Shown in pieces: positions 14,050-27,611 of a DNA stretch of 64,000 nt. The first letter of the stretch is position 1. Each line of letters begins with the position of its first letter. The stretch is from positions 1,242,501-1,306,500 of the forward strand of contig NZ_JAQNDK010000005.1 of assembly GCF_028368935.1 (NCBI RefSeq), written 5' to 3'. Source of the stretch: Sorangium aterium (lineage in GTDB: Bacteria > Myxococcota_A > Polyangia > Polyangiales > Polyangiaceae). The translations under genes and the position numbers were made by a program. The notes under the pieces were generated by a model that did not search any database, was not told the DNA's origin, and saw nothing but the letters and a program-made list of their open reading frames with translations.

Positions 14050-14661
14050 TCACGCGTCGAGCGCGGCCCGCGCCTCGGCGACGGACAGGCTGAGCAGGAG
14101 CTTCGCCTCCTCGTTGCTGCAGAAGGAGCGCGTGACCATGCGATCGACGTACAGCGTGCCGCGGAGGTGATCGACCTCGTGCTGGAGGATCCGCGCGGGC
14201 CAGCCCGTCGCTTCCCACCGGACCTCCTTGCCGTCCTCGTCCACGCCGCTCACCTCGACCGACAGATCTCGCTCGACCAGCGCCATGTAACCCGGGACGC
14301 TCAGGCAGCCCTCGAAGAACGTCGCCCGCCCCGCGCCTGCCGCGTCCGGGAGCGACGGCGCGAGGACCCTCAGCGTCGGGTTGATGACGACCCTGAGCGG
14401 GAAGGGCACGCGGCCGCGCTCGGCGCGCTGGCCCGGCGTGAGGCGGGCCATGAGCTCTTCGCTGTCTTCGAGCACGATCACCTGCTGGCCGACGCCGATC
14501 TGCGGCGCCGCCAGCCCCACGCCGGGCGCCTTGCGCATGACGGAGACCATCGTCGACACGAGGTGCTTGAGCCGCTTCGTCCCGATCTCTTCGGGCGGGA
14601 CGGGCGCGGCGGGCTTCCGCAGGACGGCTCTGCCTGCGAGGACGATCGGGGGGAGCTCCAT
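14050..14661 (-). CDS. def: Peptide deformylase
   Basis: 203 residues from the ATG at 14661; the frame is open upstream but the family starts at this point. It removes the N-formyl group from nascent proteins at the ribosome exit, using Fe2+ or another divalent metal. All three family motifs are intact: GVGLAAPQ (47-54), EGCLSVPG (117-124, metal ligand Cys119), and HEVDH (161-165, metal ligands His161 and His165, catalytic Glu162). It converges with murF, 51 bp away, and its 5' end lies back-to-back with the RND exporter gene, with about 130 bp between starts for both promoters. Confidence 0.97.
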   Translation of the reverse strand: MELPPIVLAGRAVLRKPAAPVPPEEIGTKRLKHLVSTMVSVMRKAPGVGLAAPQIGVGQQVIVLEDSEELMARLTPGQRAERGRVPFPLRVVINPTLRVLAPSLPDAAGAGRATFFEGCLSVPGYMALVERDLSVEVSGVDEDGKEVRWEATGWPARILQHEVDHLRGTLYVDRMVTRSFCSNEEAKLLLSLSVAEARAALDA

Positions 14662-14792
14662 GCTGCCGGGATGAATCGGCGCCCTCGCGAGCGCAAGCGT
14701 TGTGAGCTCGAGAGCATGGTCCGTGTGTGAGGCCTCGCGGCGAGGCGAGCGTGAGGGTAGAGGAGCGGCGCCGGGCTCGGCTCCGGGTTTCC

Positions 14793-17252
14793 ATGGCAGC
14801 ACCCCCTTCGCCTCCTTCGGCTCGCGCGGACGCCCGCCGCCGGCCGCTCCGCCTCGTCGTCGTCGTCGCCCTCGCGGCGCTGACGCTCGCCGCCTTCGCC
14901 GCCGTGACGCTGCGGCTACAGCTCGAGCCGAACGTCGCCTCGCTCCTGCCGGAGCGCGGGGACGCCGCGGCGCTGCGCCGGTACGTGCGCGGGTTCGGGG
15001 GCGGCGACCTCGGCGTCGTGATGGTCAAGGGCGACGACCCCGACGAGAACGCGGCCGTGGCCGCGGAGATCGCGCGGGCCCTCGCGGCGCGCCCGACCGT
15101 GCAGCGCGCCGCCGATCGGATCGACGTCTCGCGCTCGCTCGATCCGTGGGTCGCGTTCCGGCACGCGGACGCGCGCGTGCGAGAGCGCCTCGCCGCCGCG
15201 CTCTCGCCCGAGGGGATGCGGGAGCGCCTCGCCGAGACGCGCGCCATGCTGCTCGCGCCGGGCGGCGGCGCCGCGGCCGAGACGATCGCGGCCGACCCGC
15301 TGCGCCTCTCGCAGCTCGTCTTCGAGTCCGCGGACATCGGATCCGGGGTGCGCACGCAGGCGGACGGCGCCTTCGCTTCGGACGACGGCAAGGTGCACCT
15401 CGTCTTGGTGCAGCCGGCGGGGCAGGCGCTCCGCGGCGCCGACGCGCGGGCGTTCGTCGCGGACGCGAACGCCGTCCTCGGTCCTGTGCGCGCGGCGCAC
15501 CCGGGGCTCACGCTCGGGCTCACCGGCGGGCACGCCATCGCCGCGGCGACCGAGGCGATGCTCACGCGCGATCTCGCGATCTCGGGGTCGCTCTCGATGC
15601 TGCTCGCCTCCGTCGTCTTCGCGCTGCTCTTCCGCCGCCTGCGCGCCCTGGCCGCGGTGATGCCGCCGCTCGTGCTCGGGACCCTCTGGACCGCGGGGCT
15701 CGCCACGGCGCTCCCGGGCGGGCTCAGCGCGATCGCCGTCGCCTTCATGTCGGTGGTCGTCGGCGTCGGCGTCGACACCGGCGTCCACGTCTACGCCGCG
15801 CTGCTCGAGGCGCGGCGCGAGGGCCTCGATCCCGAGGCGGCCGGGCGCGCAGCGAGGGCGCGGACCTCCCGCGCCGTGCTCATCGCCGCCGTCACGGCGG
15901 GGGCGGCGTTCGGGGCCCTCGCGCTGTCGGACATCAACGCGCTCCGGCAGCTCGGGCTCCTGTGCGCCGCGGGCGAGGTCCTGACGGCGATCGCCATCGT
16001 GCTCGTGACGCCGGCCGTGGGCGCGTGGCTCGAGCGGGGGACCCCGCCGATCGAGGCGCCGGCGCGCTGGCCCGACTTCCTCTACCGGCTCACCCGTACC
16101 CGGGGCCGCGCGCTCGCGCTCGCGGGGCTCGCGGCGCTCCCCATCGCGGCCGTCGCCCTCGGCGCCTCTCCGCCGCTCGCGGAGGCCATCGTCGCGATCC
16201 GGCCAGCCGAGCTCGAGCCGCTCAAGGTACAGCAGGAGATCTTCGAGGCGTTCGGCGGACGGCGGGGGCAGTGGGTGGTGCTCGTCGCGGACGGCGACCA
16301 GGAGCGCGCCCGCGCGCGGGGCGACCGGATCGCGGAGCGCCTCGCCTCGATGAAGGACGACGTGGAGGCCGTCGACGCGCTCACCGCGCTCGCCCCCGCC
16401 GCCCCGACGCAGGCCGAGCGCTTCGCCGCGCGCGACGCGCTCGATCTGCCTGGCAAGGCCGACGAGCTCGAGCGCGCGCTCCGCGACACGGGCTTCGCGC
16501 CCGAGCGCTTCTCGTCGGTGCTCGACGGGATGCGCGCGCCGCCCCGGCAGGAGGTGGCGCTCTCCGATCTCGAGCGCGGCCCCGCGTCGATCCTGCTCTC
16601 GCGCTACCTCGGGGCGGACGGGGGAGAGGCGCTCGTCGCGCTGTACGTGAGGCCCCGCGAGACCGGCTCGGTCGAGCGGATCGAGCGCGCGCTCCGCGAG
16701 GAGGACCCGCGCGCCATGCTCACCGGCTACAGCCGGCTCGAGGCGTCGCTGCGCGAGACGCTCGCGCACGACATGCCGCGGATCGCGCTCGTCGCGGGCG
16801 CGCTCGTGCTGCTGGCGCTCTCGGCTTCCCTCCGCAGCGCGCGCGACATCGCGCTGGCCGCGATCGTCGTCGCCTCGGAGATCTCCCTCGTCCTCCTGTT
16901 GATCCGGGTGCTCGGCATCCCCCTGCACGCGTACGACGCGCTCGTCATCCCGGTGCTGCTCGGGATCACGGTGGACGAGGGGATGTTCCTGCTCCACCGC
17001 GCCCGCGAGATCGAGGCGGCGGGCGGCGGCGACGCCGTGATCCGCGAGATGCTGCGCCGCGAGGGGCCGGCGATCGCCGCCACGGCGCTGACCACGGCTG
17101 CGGGCTTCTCCGCGCTCGCGTTCTGCGGCTTCGACGGCCTCCGCGACCTGGGCCGGGTCGGCGCGCTGGGCAGCGCGGTCGGCCTCGTGGTCGCGCTCCT
17201 CGTGGTGCCGGCGGGGCTGCGGCTCTGGCCCCGGGCCCACGGACGCGCGTAA
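14793..17252 (+). CDS. RND/MMPL-family exporter
   Basis: 819 residues from the ATG at 14793 (the frame is open 66 nt earlier, but that stretch lacks coding character). Duplicated RND topology: one N-terminal helix (about 15-40), a large periplasmic loop, then a bundle of five helices, repeated once. Conserved features are LSMLLASVVFALLFRRLRAL, the VVVGVGVDTGVHVYA segment of the first half and the equivalent VLLGITVDEGMFLLHRARE of the second half. Each has the acidic residue expected in the proton-relay helix. It resembles the hopanoid/lipid exporter branch (HpnN, MMPL) more than AcrB. Likely role is moving a lipid or hydrophobic compound out of the inner membrane. It is first gene of a three-gene unit with 1-nt spacing and a 4-nt overlap. 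Confidence 0.88.
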   Translation: MAAPPSPPSARADARRRPLRLVVVVALAALTLAAFAAVTLRLQLEPNVASLLPERGDAAALRRYVRGFGGGDLGVVMVKGDDPDENAAVAAEIARALAARPTVQRAADRIDVSRSLDPWVAFRHADARVRERLAAALSPEGMRERLAETRAMLLAPGGGAAAETIAADPLRLSQLVFESADIGSGVRTQADGAFASDDGKVHLVLVQPAGQALRGADARAFVADANAVLGPVRAAHPGLTLGLTGGHAIAAATEAMLTRDLAISGSLSMLLASVVFALLFRRLRALAAVMPPLVLGTLWTAGLATALPGGLSAIAVAFMSVVVGVGVDTGVHVYAALLEARREGLDPEAAGRAARARTSRAVLIAAVTAGAAFGALALSDINALRQLGLLCAAGEVLTAIAIVLVTPAVGAWLERGTPPIEAPARWPDFLYRLTRTRGRALALAGLAALPIAAVALGASPPLAEAIVAIRPAELEPLKVQQEIFEAFGGRRGQWVVLVADGDQERARARGDRIAERLASMKDDVEAVDALTALAPAAPTQAERFAARDALDLPGKADELERALRDTGFAPERFSSVLDGMRAPPRQEVALSDLERGPASILLSRYLGADGGEALVALYVRPRETGSVERIERALREEDPRAMLTGYSRLEASLRETLAHDMPRIALVAGALVLLALSASLRSARDIALAAIVVASEISLVLLLIRVLGIPLHAYDALVIPVLLGITVDEGMFLLHRAREIEAAGGGDAVIREMLRREGPAIAATALTTAAGFSALAFCGFDGLRDLGRVGALGSAVGLVVALLVVPAGLRLWPRAHGRA

Positions 17253-17253
17253 C

Positions 17254-18645
17254 ATGTCGCCGTTGTCGCCCCGGGGCCTCCTCCTTGTCGCTCTCCTCGC
17301 GCTCGCGCGTCCCGCTGCCGCGCAGCCGTCTCCTCCGCCCGCTGCGCCGGCGCCGAGGCCGCCGCGCTCGGCCGTGGCGCGCGCCGTCGACGCGCTCGTG
17401 CGCTCGCTCGACGCCGTGGACGGCCGCGCGCTCGTGGCCGCCGCGCCGCTGGTCTCCGACGCGCCGGCACCGCGCGGCGCCCAGCTCGTGGCCACGCTCG
17501 CCGCCCAGGTCGCCGGCAAGCTCGGCGCCGGCGTGCGCGCGCAGAAGGATCCGATCCCGCTGCCGCTCGCGCGCGAGGCGGCGCGCGACGACGCGGCGCT
17601 CGTCCACCTCGTCGTCGAGATCGCGGCGGGAAAGCTGCGCGTCACCGCGGACGTGTACCCGGTGCCGCGCACCGTCTGGGCGCGCATCCGCGATCCGGAG
17701 CCGGGGCCGATCGCCCACGCCTACGCCGAGGCGCCCCTCGACGCGGAGATCCGCAGCTTCCTCGCGCCGATCCCGCTCGTCGCCGCCAGGGTCGACCGCG
17801 CGAAGAACTTCGAGGGCGACGTGGTCGCGCTCGCGTGCGGCGATCTCGACGCCGACGGGGCGCTCGAGCTCCTGAGCGTGAGCCGCCGGCGCGTGACGAC
17901 GCTCCGCCTCCGCGGCGGCCGGGTCGTGCCGCTCGCGTCGCGCCCGTGGCCGGACGTGGTCGCCGTGCACCCGGCGCCGCTCCGCGAGCCGCTCGCGTTC
18001 GCCACGCTCGTCGAGCGCGCGAGGGACGGCGAGCTCCTGCCTCCGTTCGCCGACATCGGGCTCACCGATCGCGCGCGCAGCGTCCGCTTCGACGGCGAGC
18101 TGAAGGCGCTCGCCGAACTCCCGGGGCTGGCGATCCCGGACGCGGGCGGCTCGGCCTGCACGACGACGTGGGGGCCGCTCCTCACGGGCCCGCTCGGGCC
18201 GTGCGCCCCAGCCGATCCCCCGCCGGCGACCGCGGCGCTCTCCGGCCGGTACGACGCGCTCGCGTCGGCGCAGCTCCTGTCCGCGCAGGGCGAACCCTTC
18301 GCGGTCTGGGCGACGCGCGAGCGCGGCGCGGTCGAGCTCCGGGACAGCGCGGGCCGTCGCAAGGTCGTGGGCAGCGCCGGGGCGCAGCTCGCGATCGGCG
18401 ATCTCGATCAGGATGGAGAGCCCGAGCTGCTCGCCAGCCTCGACGTGCTCGATCCGCTCGAGGACGCCGTCGTGGTCTGGTCGTGGCGGCGCCGGGAAGG
18501 CAGCCCGGCCCGCGCGGCGCCCGAGGAGATCCTGCGCTTGCCGGCGCCGGCGGGCGTGCGCGCCCTCGCGGTCTGTCCGCCCGACGGGGCCGGGCGCGCC
18601 CCCTTCGCCGTCGCGACGGCGGACGAGATCTGGGTGGTGCGGTGA
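17254..18645 (+). CDS. Secreted VCBS/FG-GAP-like protein of the exporter operon
   Basis: 463 residues starting one nucleotide after the exporter stop. An N-terminal signal peptide (LLLVALLALARPAAAQP, cleavage probably after residue 23) is followed by a Pro/Ala linker. Residues about 60-175 form a domain I do not recognise. Two Ca-binding-type loops follow, DLDADGALELL at 197-207 and DLDQDGEPELL at about 383-393, each inside FG-GAP/VCBS-like beta strands. This suggests an incomplete beta-propeller in the periplasm or outside. Only two clear repeats are seen where full propellers have seven, so the remaining blades are divergent or absent. Tight coupling to the RND gene and the binding-protein gene suggests one extracytoplasmic process, unknown. 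Confidence 0.65.
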   Translation: MSPLSPRGLLLVALLALARPAAAQPSPPPAAPAPRPPRSAVARAVDALVRSLDAVDGRALVAAAPLVSDAPAPRGAQLVATLAAQVAGKLGAGVRAQKDPIPLPLAREAARDDAALVHLVVEIAAGKLRVTADVYPVPRTVWARIRDPEPGPIAHAYAEAPLDAEIRSFLAPIPLVAARVDRAKNFEGDVVALACGDLDADGALELLSVSRRRVTTLRLRGGRVVPLASRPWPDVVAVHPAPLREPLAFATLVERARDGELLPPFADIGLTDRARSVRFDGELKALAELPGLAIPDAGGSACTTTWGPLLTGPLGPCAPADPPPATAALSGRYDALASAQLLSAQGEPFAVWATRERGAVELRDSAGRRKVVGSAGAQLAIGDLDQDGEPELLASLDVLDPLEDAVVVWSWRRREGSPARAAPEEILRLPAPAGVRALAVCPPDGAGRAPFAVATADEIWVVR

Positions 18646-20003
18646 GCCGATCGCTCCCGCGCCGCGCCTTCCTCGGCGGCGCCGGCGCGCTGCTCGGCGC
18701 GGCCGTCCTTCCGGAGGGCGCGCGTGCGATGGGGCGCACCCCGCTTGGCGGCCGCCTCTCGATGCACCTCCCGTGGCCGACGAGCTCGCTCGATCCACAC
18801 GACCTGAGCGATCCCGCCGCGGCGCTGTTCGCGCCGGCGATCGCCGACAGCCTCTACGGGCTCGACGCGTCCGGGAACCCGTACCCGACGCTCGCGTCCG
18901 CGCTGCCGTCGCGCGAAGGGGACGGCGCGGTCGTGCGCCTGCGCGAGGGGTTGCGCACCGCGCGCCTGCTCAAGCTCGACGGCCGCGACGTCGTGAGCTC
19001 CGTCGAGCGCGCCCGCGCTCGCGGCGCCGCCGCGGCGCTCGCCGACATCCCGAGGCCCGAGCGGCACCCGAGGGATCCGCTCGCCGCGGTGTTCCCGCGC
19101 GCGGATCCCGCCCGCGTCGCCCGCGCGCTCGCGTCGCCGATGGTCGCGCTCCTGCCGCGCGCCTTCGACCCCGCGGCGCCGGATGGCACCGGCGCGTTCC
19201 GGGCCGACGTCGGCCCGGGGCAGATCACGCTGACGCGCAACGACGTCGCCGCGCGCGGCGCTGCCTTCCTCGACGCGATCGAGGTGATCCGCTCCGAGGA
19301 CCTGACGACCTCGCTGCGCGCGTTCGAGACCGAGCGCGACGACCTCGGCTGGCTCGGCGCTGGCCTCCACACGAACCGCCGCGGCGCCGTCCGCTTCGAT
19401 CTGGGCGTCGCCGGGTGGATCGTGCTCACGACGGGCCCCGACGCCGGGCTCTTCGGTCAGCCTGGCGTCGCGCAGCGGCTGGTCGACGCGCTGCCGCCCG
19501 AGCGCCTGGCGCACCTCGGCCTCGTCGGCCTCCCGAGGGCGCACGGCGATCCCGCGTGGGGAGGGCCCCCGGCGCCGCTGCTCGTGGACGAGTCTGCCGC
19601 TCACCTCGTCGAGGTCGCCGAGGCGGTCGCGCCGATCCTCTCGCGGCCCGGGCACGAGGTCACCGCGGAGCCGGTGGCGCGGGCGGAGCTCGGGCGCCGC
19701 CGCGCCCGCGGGAAGGCGACGCTCGCGATCGAGCTGGTGCGCCCGCTCGGTCCGGGGCCCCTCGGCGCGCTGCTCGCCCTCGCGACCGCCGACGATCGCA
19801 GCCGCGCCCTCGATCTTGCCCGTCACCCGCCCCGCCTCGCGCCCGGCGCCGCCCCGCGCTCGCTCACCGCGACGCTGCGCCTCGGCGTGATCGCCGAGGT
19901 CCGGATCGCGGGCGGCGTGCTGCCGGACATCGCGCTCGCGCGCGCCGCCGGCGGAGAGGGCTGGGATCTCGGCGCCACCTTCCGCCGCCCTGCGAGGCGC
20001 TGA
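18642..20003 (+). CDS. Tat-exported family-5 extracellular solute-binding protein
   Basis: 453 residues. The GTG start at 18642 overlaps the preceding stop by four bases (GTGA), implying coupled translation. The N-terminus SRSLPRRAFLGGAGALLGAAV is a clear twin-arginine signal, so the protein is exported folded. The mature part matches the SBP_bac_5 family (DppA/OppA/NikA type): PWPTSSLDPHDLSDPAAALFAP, SLYGLDASGNPYPTLA, VRLREGLRTA, and GTGAFRADVGPGQITLTRND. At 453 residues it is a little short for the family (about 500-550). No ABC permease or ATPase accompanies it; its partners are an RND exporter and a VCBS-like protein. It may therefore hand ligand to the RND protein rather than to an ABC importer (inference). 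Confidence 0.75.
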   Translation: MSRSLPRRAFLGGAGALLGAAVLPEGARAMGRTPLGGRLSMHLPWPTSSLDPHDLSDPAAALFAPAIADSLYGLDASGNPYPTLASALPSREGDGAVVRLREGLRTARLLKLDGRDVVSSVERARARGAAAALADIPRPERHPRDPLAAVFPRADPARVARALASPMVALLPRAFDPAAPDGTGAFRADVGPGQITLTRNDVAARGAAFLDAIEVIRSEDLTTSLRAFETERDDLGWLGAGLHTNRRGAVRFDLGVAGWIVLTTGPDAGLFGQPGVAQRLVDALPPERLAHLGLVGLPRAHGDPAWGGPPAPLLVDESAAHLVEVAEAVAPILSRPGHEVTAEPVARAELGRRRARGKATLAIELVRPLGPGPLGALLALATADDRSRALDLARHPPRLAPGAAPRSLTATLRLGVIAEVRIAGGVLPDIALARAAGGEGWDLGATFRRPARR

Positions 20004-20339: not shown

Positions 20340-20762
20340 ATGGGTACTCGCCTCTACGTTGGTAATCTCCCCTTCTCCGCCACCAAGGCCTCCGTGCAGG
20401 CCGCGTTCGCTCAGAGCGGCGAGGTGACGGATGTGCACATCGTGACCGACCGCGAGAGTGGCCAGTCACGCGGCTTCGGGTTCGTCACGATGGGCACGCC
20501 TGAGCAGGCCCAGCAGGCGATCGAGAACATGAACGGCGCCATGATGGACGGCCGTCCGCTTCGCGTGAACGAGGCGGAGGAGCGGGTCCAGCGTGGTGGC
20601 GGTGGTGGCGGCGGCGGTTACGGCAGCGGTGGCGGCGGCGGCTACGGCGGCGGCGGCGGCGGTGGTGGCCGCGGCGGTCGTGGCGGTGGCGGCGGCGGTT
20701 ACGGCGGCGGCGGTGGTGGCGGCCGCGGTGGTCGCGGCGGCCGCGGCGGCGATCGGTACTGA
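20340..20762 (+). CDS. Glycine-rich RRM RNA-binding protein
   Basis: 140 residues. One N-terminal RNA-recognition motif (2-80) with RNP2 LYVGNL (5-10) and RNP1 RGFGFVTM (44-51), both with the aromatic residues that stack on RNA. The C-terminal 55 residues are almost only Gly with Tyr and Arg (GGGGYGGG and GGRGGRGG runs), like plant and cyanobacterial glycine-rich RNA-binding proteins. In bacteria such proteins are common in cyanobacteria and myxobacteria, and several respond to cold. They are thought to act as RNA chaperones and may phase-separate through the Gly/Arg tail. Monocistronic: candidate promoter at 20098 and hairpin terminator at 20788. Confidence 0.93.
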   Translation: MGTRLYVGNLPFSATKASVQAAFAQSGEVTDVHIVTDRESGQSRGFGFVTMGTPEQAQQAIENMNGAMMDGRPLRVNEAEERVQRGGGGGGGGYGSGGGGGYGGGGGGGGRGGRGGGGGGYGGGGGGGRGGRGGRGGDRY

Positions 20763-25850: not shown

Positions 25851-27611
25851 ATGCGCATCCCCGGCAGGACGGAGCGGCGGGTCGTCGCGGCCATCCTCGT
25901 GACCGCCCTGATCCCGCTCGTCGCCAGCATCGTGGTCGCCAGGACGGTGATCGCGCGGGTGTCGGCGACGGCGTTCCAGCCGGAGTTCGGCGTCCACCTG
26001 GACAGGGCGCTCGGCGTGTACGCCGAGCTGGCCGCCGCCATCAAGCAGGGCATGCGCTCCGAGGCCGACGCGATCGTCGCGGCGGACCCGCTGCGCGAGA
26101 GCGCCTTCAGGGGCGACGCGCAGCGCCTCGATGGCGAGCTCACGCGCATCATCGCGGCTCACCCCGCGCTGGTCTCGCTCCGCGTCGAGCGCTGCGGCGG
26201 CGATCTCGTCGGAGCGCGCGAGCGCGGCCGCCCGGTGGATCCGGCGCACGAGAAGACGCTCACGGTCCGGAAGGCCATCGCGCGCGCGCCCGGCCACGCC
26301 GCGGAGCCCGGCGATCCCGCGCCCGACGACGGCGGCTGCGACGGCGACGAGCGGACCCTCGTCGCGACGTTCGCCGCGCCGAGCGCGCGCTTCGACGAGC
26401 TCGACGCGGCGCAGGCGTTCGCGCAGGCGTACCACGCCCTCGAGCGGGAGCACCGGAAGGAGTACCTCGACGAGAGCTACGGCGACGCCTTCGCCGCCCT
26501 GCTCGGCGCGACGATCCTCCTCGCGATCCTCGCGGGCGTGCTCGTGGCGCGCCCCGTGGTCGACCGCATCGCGCGGCTCGCCGCGGCGACCCGGCCCGTC
26601 GCGGAGGGCGACCTCTCGGTGCGCGTGGGGCTGCAGGGCGACGACGAGGTCGCCGATCTCGGCCGCGCCTTCGATCGCATGCTCGAGGAGCTCGAGGGCA
26701 GCCGCGCGCGGATCGAGTTCCTCAAGCGCATGGGCGAGTGGCAGAAGATGGCCCGGCACCTCGCGCACGAGATCAAGAACCCGCTGACCCCGATCCAGCT
26801 CGCCGTCGAGGAGTGCCACCGCCGCTATGCGGGCAGCGATCCGAGGTACCAGCGATTGCTCCAGACGACGCTGGAGGTCGTCGAGGAGGAGGTCGGCACC
26901 CTGCGCCGCCTCGTCGGCGAGTTCTCCAATTTCGCGCGGCTCCCGCGGGCAGAGCTCGAACCCTCGGATCTCGCGGAGTTCCTGCGCGAGCAGGGCGAGC
27001 GCTTCGCCGCGGTCGAGGAGGCGGGGCGCGAGCACGCCTCGGACGAGGTGCTGCTCGGGCGCGTCGATCTCGAGTTCGACGTGCCGGATGTCCTGATGCC
27101 GGCCGCGCTCGATCGCGAGATGCTCCGGCGCGCCCTCGGCAACATCGTGCGCAACGCGGCGCAGGCGCTGCGCGACGCGCAGCGGGCGATGCCCGGCGGA
27201 GCAGCCCGAGAGCGCCCGGGCGCCGGTGCGTGGGGCAGGGTTCGCGTCTCGGCGCGGAGCGAGGGGCAGAGCTACCTCATCGCGATCGACGACGACGGCC
27301 CGGGCATCGATCCCGCCGTGCGGGACTCGGTGTTCGATCCGTACGTCACGACGAGGTACGACGGCACGGGGCTCGGCCTGAGCATCGTGAAGAAGATCGT
27401 GGTCGATCACGGCGGCACCATCGACGTGCTCGAGTCCCCGCTCGGAGGCGCGCGTTTCATCATCCGGCTCCCGCGCGCAGGCACGCCGGCGGCGCGCGCC
27501 GCGCTCGGGGCCGCGGCCTTCTCCGAAGGCGATCGCGCGCCTGCGTCCGAGGGCGCCGCGCCGGCGCGGCCAGCCGCTCGCGGCGGGCAGGCGCCGCGCG
27601 GGGCGGGGTAG
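25851..27611 (+). CDS. NtrY-like sensor histidine kinase
   Basis: 586 residues from the ATG at 25851, immediately before the membrane anchor VVAAILVTALIPLVASIVV. A sensor segment of about 200 residues and a second membrane helix (AALLGATILLAILAGVLVA) precede a HAMP domain (PVVDRIARLAAATRPVAEGD). The phosphorylated His is His306 in HLAHEIKNPLTPIQ, the NtrY-type H-box, and the catalytic domain has GNIVRNAAQAL (N box), DDDGPGIDP (G1) and GTGLGLSIVKKIV (G2). After the ATPase domain there is an Ala-rich tail of about 45 residues. No response regulator lies nearby, so this is an orphan kinase. Family members usually signal to NtrC-type sigma-54 activators. Confidence 0.9.
   Translation: MRIPGRTERRVVAAILVTALIPLVASIVVARTVIARVSATAFQPEFGVHLDRALGVYAELAAAIKQGMRSEADAIVAADPLRESAFRGDAQRLDGELTRIIAAHPALVSLRVERCGGDLVGARERGRPVDPAHEKTLTVRKAIARAPGHAAEPGDPAPDDGGCDGDERTLVATFAAPSARFDELDAAQAFAQAYHALEREHRKEYLDESYGDAFAALLGATILLAILAGVLVARPVVDRIARLAAATRPVAEGDLSVRVGLQGDDEVADLGRAFDRMLEELEGSRARIEFLKRMGEWQKMARHLAHEIKNPLTPIQLAVEECHRRYAGSDPRYQRLLQTTLEVVEEEVGTLRRLVGEFSNFARLPRAELEPSDLAEFLREQGERFAAVEEAGREHASDEVLLGRVDLEFDVPDVLMPAALDREMLRRALGNIVRNAAQALRDAQRAMPGGAARERPGAGAWGRVRVSARSEGQSYLIAIDDDGPGIDPAVRDSVFDPYVTTRYDGTGLGLSIVKKIVVDHGGTIDVLESPLGGARFIIRLPRAGTPAARAALGAAAFSEGDRAPASEGAAPARPAARGGQAPRGAG

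Follow-up and report, generated by a model that had tools for sequence, protein, structure and literature searches.

One of the closest described counterparts of the locus studied here is BstABC of Methylococcus capsulatus, a sterol transporter known to combine an RND protein with a binding protein (PMC10942540), and the idea of a three-part transporter therefore has a precedent. In both cases the genes encode an RND/MMPL protein together with two periplasmic proteins, one of them a binding protein. BstB, however, is of the PhnD type (PF12974) and BstC is TPR-like, whereas the proteins here are family-5-like and FG-GAP; in addition, the BstA model failed on our exporter (121 against 1400 bits), no sterol genes were recognised beside the trio, and the linkage is not deeply conserved. 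The RND transporters HpnN and HAE3 share with our exporter the two MMPL domains, and HAE3 (TIGR00921) is its top NCBIfam match, but the protein here falls under every curated cut-off.

Two further systems concern the binding protein. In AioX–AioS, a periplasmic binding protein is reported to signal to a histidine kinase (PMC5908839), and the ancestral operon described below likewise has a binding protein and a sensor histidine kinase without a permease. AioX is of the PhnD type and senses arsenic oxyanions, while the protein here resembles family 5 and comes with an FG-GAP partner and a PBP1A gene; moreover, the kinase gene no longer adjoins the pair in Sorangium. The murein-tripeptide binding protein MppA belongs to family 5 and is concerned with cell-wall peptides (PMC6022919), but its similarity is distant, since the profile of our family reaches MppA (3o9p) at 5.4e-05 and the match is limited to profile positions 39-122.

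The three-gene locus in Sorangium aterium

The window, the whole stretch of 64,000 nucleotides that was analysed, comes from a 13.5 Mb genome of the soil bacterium Sorangium aterium. Open reading frames place three genes on its plus strand in the order RND/MMPL, FG-GAP and binding protein, among the following features.

14050-14661, minus strand: def (peptide deformylase), divergent from the RND gene
14662-14792, no strand: divergent intergenic region between def and the RND gene, 131 nt, probable promoter region (ORF layout)
14793-17252, plus strand: RND/MMPL inner-membrane exporter, 819 aa, two MMPL domains (Pfam MMPL and NCBIfam matches)
17254-18645, plus strand: secreted FG-GAP (beta-propeller type) protein, 463 aa, two DxDxDG calcium-loop motifs (FG-GAP_3 in aligned members, motif positions, spacing)
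18642-20003, plus strand: divergent family-5 solute-binding-protein homologue, 453 aa, twin-arginine signal SLPRRAFLGG (GTGA overlap, PF00496 in relatives, PDB profile matches)
25851-27611, plus strand: sensor histidine kinase gene downstream of glmS, not orthologous to the kinase that adjoins the pair in other genomes

The TAA stop codon of the RND gene ends at 17252 and the FG-GAP gene starts with ATG at 17254, leaving 1 nt between them, while GTGA at 18642-18645 is the overlap of the FG-GAP and binding-protein genes. The close spacing said to tie the three genes together is thus exact, and as far as the sequence can tell the trio is likely co-expressed in Sorangium. Because the promoter scan gave no sigma-70-type match, the promoter in the 131-nt gap is placed there by gene layout and is a probable one; the terminator scan was likewise empty. 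The trio is followed after 336 nt by a gene for an RNA-binding protein of the RRM type whose tail is long and rich in glycine (20340-20762), which is kept in Sorangium. The housekeeping neighbours are leuS, murF, def, nhaA and glmS, with names assigned from sequence.

Pfam MMPL (PF03176) matched the first protein in two stretches at 4.1e-32 (111.9 bits, cut-off 20.5), which places it in the RND superfamily and agrees with its initial designation as an MMPL-type exporter. In the NCBIfam ranking HAE3 came first (162 bits, cut-off 352), followed by BstA (NF045600; 121.5 bits, cut-off 1400) and HpnN (TIGR03480; 116.6 bits, cut-off 751.85), so that the protein qualified as neither a BstA sterol transporter nor a hopanoid transporter. 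The second protein, which had been described as a VCBS-like secreted protein with calcium-loop repeats, reads as having a Sec-type signal and carries DxDxDG loops at residues 197 and 383 that are kept in most relatives. Secretion and loops were therefore retained from that description, and VCBS gave way to FG-GAP because 37 of the 38 aligned members of the family match FG-GAP_3; the repeats of the window protein itself score slightly under the Pfam cut-off (24.4 against 26.9 bits). AlphaFold2 models of this protein and of the binding protein, built from an input alignment of five near-identical rows, each had a mean pLDDT of 32, too low for the models to be of use in judging a two-lobed fold with a ligand cleft.

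For the third protein, a twin-arginine motif (PRRAFL in the window protein) was present in 29 of 42 aligned members, and by this motif it would be a Tat-type export substrate. Its assignment to family 5 is of another kind. No match of PF00496 (SBP_bac_5) to the window protein was obtained, either singly (E up to 1) or in the whole-genome scan, yet 26 of the 42 aligned relatives carry the domain (best 1.5e-33), and a profile of the family matched binding proteins of the AapF/NikA type in the PDB at 8.6e-19 and weaker. What had been called a family-5 binding protein with a twin-arginine signal thus keeps its signal and its family-level homology, without a PF00496 match of its own. The PF00496 score falls from 112.9 bits in locus L102 to 63.5 bits in L118 and to no match in the window protein, which has thus diverged from ordinary binding proteins. 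In the alignment, most members from Polyangiaceae are 42-92% identical to it, and the named relatives S. cellulosum So0157-2, So ce26 and So ceGT47 reach 89-92%; very few positions are invariant (P52, P89, L163, E229), and a segment of L102-L104 is missing from the window protein. The family as defined leaves out L107, L114, L115 and L116, which matched the query weakly. A Pfam VirionAssem_T7 match was rejected, as it scored 21.1 bits against a cut-off of 25 and occurred in only 2 of the 42 members.

The statement that no ABC importer is encoded here was borne out: no BPD_transp_1 permease gene lies within the window, and on its contig such matches are about 180 kb or more away on either side, the nearest on the lower side being about 490 kb off (C5:764697) and none being listed above position 1306500. 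Nor was a permease recognised beside the binding-protein orthologues in the loci read; L107, L115 and L116 do have adjoining permease genes, but the genes flanked by these encode longer generic binding proteins (568-591 aa). Separately, the window's genome holds three clear family-5 binding proteins, in frames of about 626-645 aa (G000:C2:177190, C5:970644 and C3:935971), with no BPD_transp_1 match close in coordinates, and further orphan binding proteins may therefore exist.

Linkage of the exporter gene to the pair across genomes

All five Sorangium genomes with long enough contigs have the trio in this order, as does one genome of another genus (G075). The spacing between RND and FG-GAP genes was 10-13 nt in the two other Sorangium genomes that were measured, although gene calls in genomes other than that of the window came from a simple codon-usage caller and small spacings and some starts may err (in the window, the caller set the FG-GAP start past the ATG at 17254). 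Across 108 Polyangiaceae genomes, counted singly regardless of kinship, 81 had the binding protein and 56 the RND orthologue, with both in 47; the binding protein occurred in 34 genomes where no RND orthologue was found, and the reverse in 9. Where both were present, they were adjacent in 6 genomes and less than 10 kb apart on the same strand in 12 more (18 of 47), and 86 kb to 2 Mb apart in 4. The remaining 25 are draft assemblies with the two genes on separate contigs, so that no distance can be measured, and this restricts the linkage counts.

We placed these loci on a maximum-likelihood tree of 50 binding proteins, built with a quick method in which long branches were flagged as possibly falsely joined. 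RND linkage was confined to a single clade of 14 rows (SH-aLRT 94), in 12 of which the RND gene lay on the same strand less than 10 kb from the binding-protein gene; outside it no such linkage was seen, the two genes being on different contigs or 86-103 kb apart. Where the RND gene was near the pair but not adjacent, the genes in between differed and looked unrelated, such as ThiD (L141, L066), a ClpP-like gene (L077) and two antisense genes (L121). A conserved protein of about 253 aa (cluster c36), with no Pfam or NCBIfam match, is encoded between the RND and FG-GAP genes in L065, L068 and L069 of genus g44. Outside the clade, RND orthologues are often located between a CorC-like gene and mfd. 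A conserved CorC-like–RND–Mfd block was seen in L122-L124, L128-L131 and L138, often with lytic transglycosylase and DNA methylase genes upstream.

The neighbourhood check thus found conserved co-occurrence of the three families in Sorangium (5 of 5) and in most rows of one clade, but not outside that clade. Within the clade a genuine functional tie is conceivable, since 12 of the 14 rows keep the linkage. The proposal of the earlier note that the trio is a three-part envelope transport system is unsupported as a conserved unit, given linkage in 18 of 47 genomes, the binding protein without an RND orthologue in 34, and different older partners of the pair.

An operon with PBP1A and a histidine kinase

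In Polyangiaceae and in several other families, nearly all loci read have the FG-GAP and binding-protein genes side by side, often overlapping by 4 nt. In deeper lineages this pair is preceded by a gene for a class A penicillin-binding protein (TIGR02074, 562 bits, cut-off 508.75) and followed by one for a HAMP-HisKA-HATPase kinase. The full order PBP1A–FG-GAP–binding protein–kinase, with genes overlapping or nearly abutting, was found in L098, L100, L102-L104, L108, L112 and L118, and every junction was a 4-nt overlap in L100, L108 and L118. A TrmH-type gene precedes the four in L192-L195 and is missing in L199, and L198, from one genome of the same phylum outside class Polyangia, has FG-GAP, binding protein and kinase. 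The order is not universal, because no FG-GAP gene was detected between PBP1A and binding protein in L097, L101 and L110 of family f5, where those two genes are adjacent. The gene order, overlaps and protein families of the pair are direct observations.

An adjoining sensor kinase gene is present in many loci outside Sorangium, while in the genome of the window the kinase orthologue is found at C2:908951-910669 (45% identity over the full length). The kinase at 25851-27611 was a candidate for the lost partner but was discarded, since its 37% identity covers the kinase core only and the match on C2 is better and full-length. Two PBP1A genes also lie on contig C2, away from the pair, one of them still behind a Ser/Thr kinase gene of the type seen in other genomes.

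PBP1A linkage occurred in every basal lineage of the binding-protein tree. Read from this tree, the PBP1A operon would be ancestral, broken up in part of Polyangiaceae, with RND linkage gained once. Because the pair travels with PBP1A and a sensor kinase in most deep-branching relatives, the pump probably came to lie beside it recently rather than forming a three-part transporter with it. The operon, optionally headed by TrmH and spread over several families of class Polyangia, is apparently undescribed: a search that mostly covered literature outside subscription journals found no papers on FG-GAP with a PBP in myxobacteria or on a binding protein with a class A PBP. It is a more interesting result than the three-part transporter.

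Possible roles of the pair

We propose that the FG-GAP protein and the binding-protein homologue form a functional unit, both being exported, translationally coupled and probably active together in the periplasm. Ancestrally the pair would have sat in the middle of the PBP1A–FG-GAP–binding protein–histidine kinase operon. Most likely, the binding protein would capture a ligand in the periplasm, perhaps a fragment of the cell wall; with the propeller as its scaffold, it may then report to the sensor kinase, adjust the PBP1A synthase, or do both, in the manner of AioX–AioS. As no permease was recognised beside the orthologues, we take it to be a sensor or accessory protein and not an importer subunit. 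We infer the complex, its ligand, the signalling and the link to wall synthesis; the single pointer to peptidoglycan is the PBP1A neighbour. In the Polyangiaceae subclade that includes Sorangium, the operon would have broken up and the pair landed behind the gene of the RND/MMPL exporter; in Sorangium this gene and the pair are probably co-transcribed, yet the pair would not depend on the exporter. We give about an even chance to this account of a periplasmic sensing or accessory module, ancestrally placed with PBP1A and a histidine kinase and secondarily behind an RND gene.

Other readings start from the same loci. The pair could belong to a BstABC-like lipid transport system, in which the RND protein lifts a lipid from the inner membrane, the binding protein ferries it across the periplasm and the FG-GAP protein replaces BstC. 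The tight packing of the trio in Sorangium, the resemblance of the exporter to BstA, HpnN and HAE3, the linkage still seen in 12 of the 14 rows of a single clade and the precedent in M. capsulatus would all fit, but the exporter scores 121 bits against the BstA cut-off of 1400, BstB is PhnD-type and not family 5 (PMC10942540), 34 family genomes with the binding protein yielded no RND orthologue, linkage is limited to that clade, and the pair would ancestrally have been partnered by PBP1A and a kinase. Such a transporter is very unlikely on this evidence.

It is highly improbable, too, that the protein is an orphan serving an ABC importer encoded elsewhere. Family-5 homology and the 41 BPD_transp_1 matches in the host genome could be cited for it, and permeases can be shared among binding proteins, as MppA, which has no dedicated permease genes of its own, does with Opp. 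Against this stand the orthologues read, none with a recognised permease beside it, the longer generic proteins of the permease-flanked loci L107, L115 and L116, and a divergence too great for PF00496 detection. The protein might also have given up ligand binding and now support the structure or stability of the FG-GAP protein, which the near-constant pairing, the loss of the segment present in L102-L104 and the scarcity of invariant positions would favour; the 42-92% identity kept in most Polyangiaceae members suggests instead a retained specific surface, and we regard this reading as unlikely.

For the ancestral unit, the evidence favours a binding protein of the kinase-signalling kind, and the pair in Sorangium may now serve the exporter. 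Since kinase and PBP1A are both distant in Sorangium, the ancestral role may be lost or changed there. A broader claim is put forward tentatively and with some doubt: that Polyangia have a previously undescribed operon for envelope signalling, whose divergent family-5 binding protein and FG-GAP propeller connect a class A PBP with a sensor kinase, the pair having been re-deployed to an RND exporter in the Sorangium clade.

These results show how misleading close gene packing in a single genome can be, as a 1-nt spacing suggested a transport complex and wider sampling pointed to other partners. To our knowledge, how large-genome myxobacteria sense the state of their wall is poorly known. Should the ancestral operon function in the proposed way, these bacteria would have a sensor that is based on a binding protein and linked to peptidoglycan synthesis.
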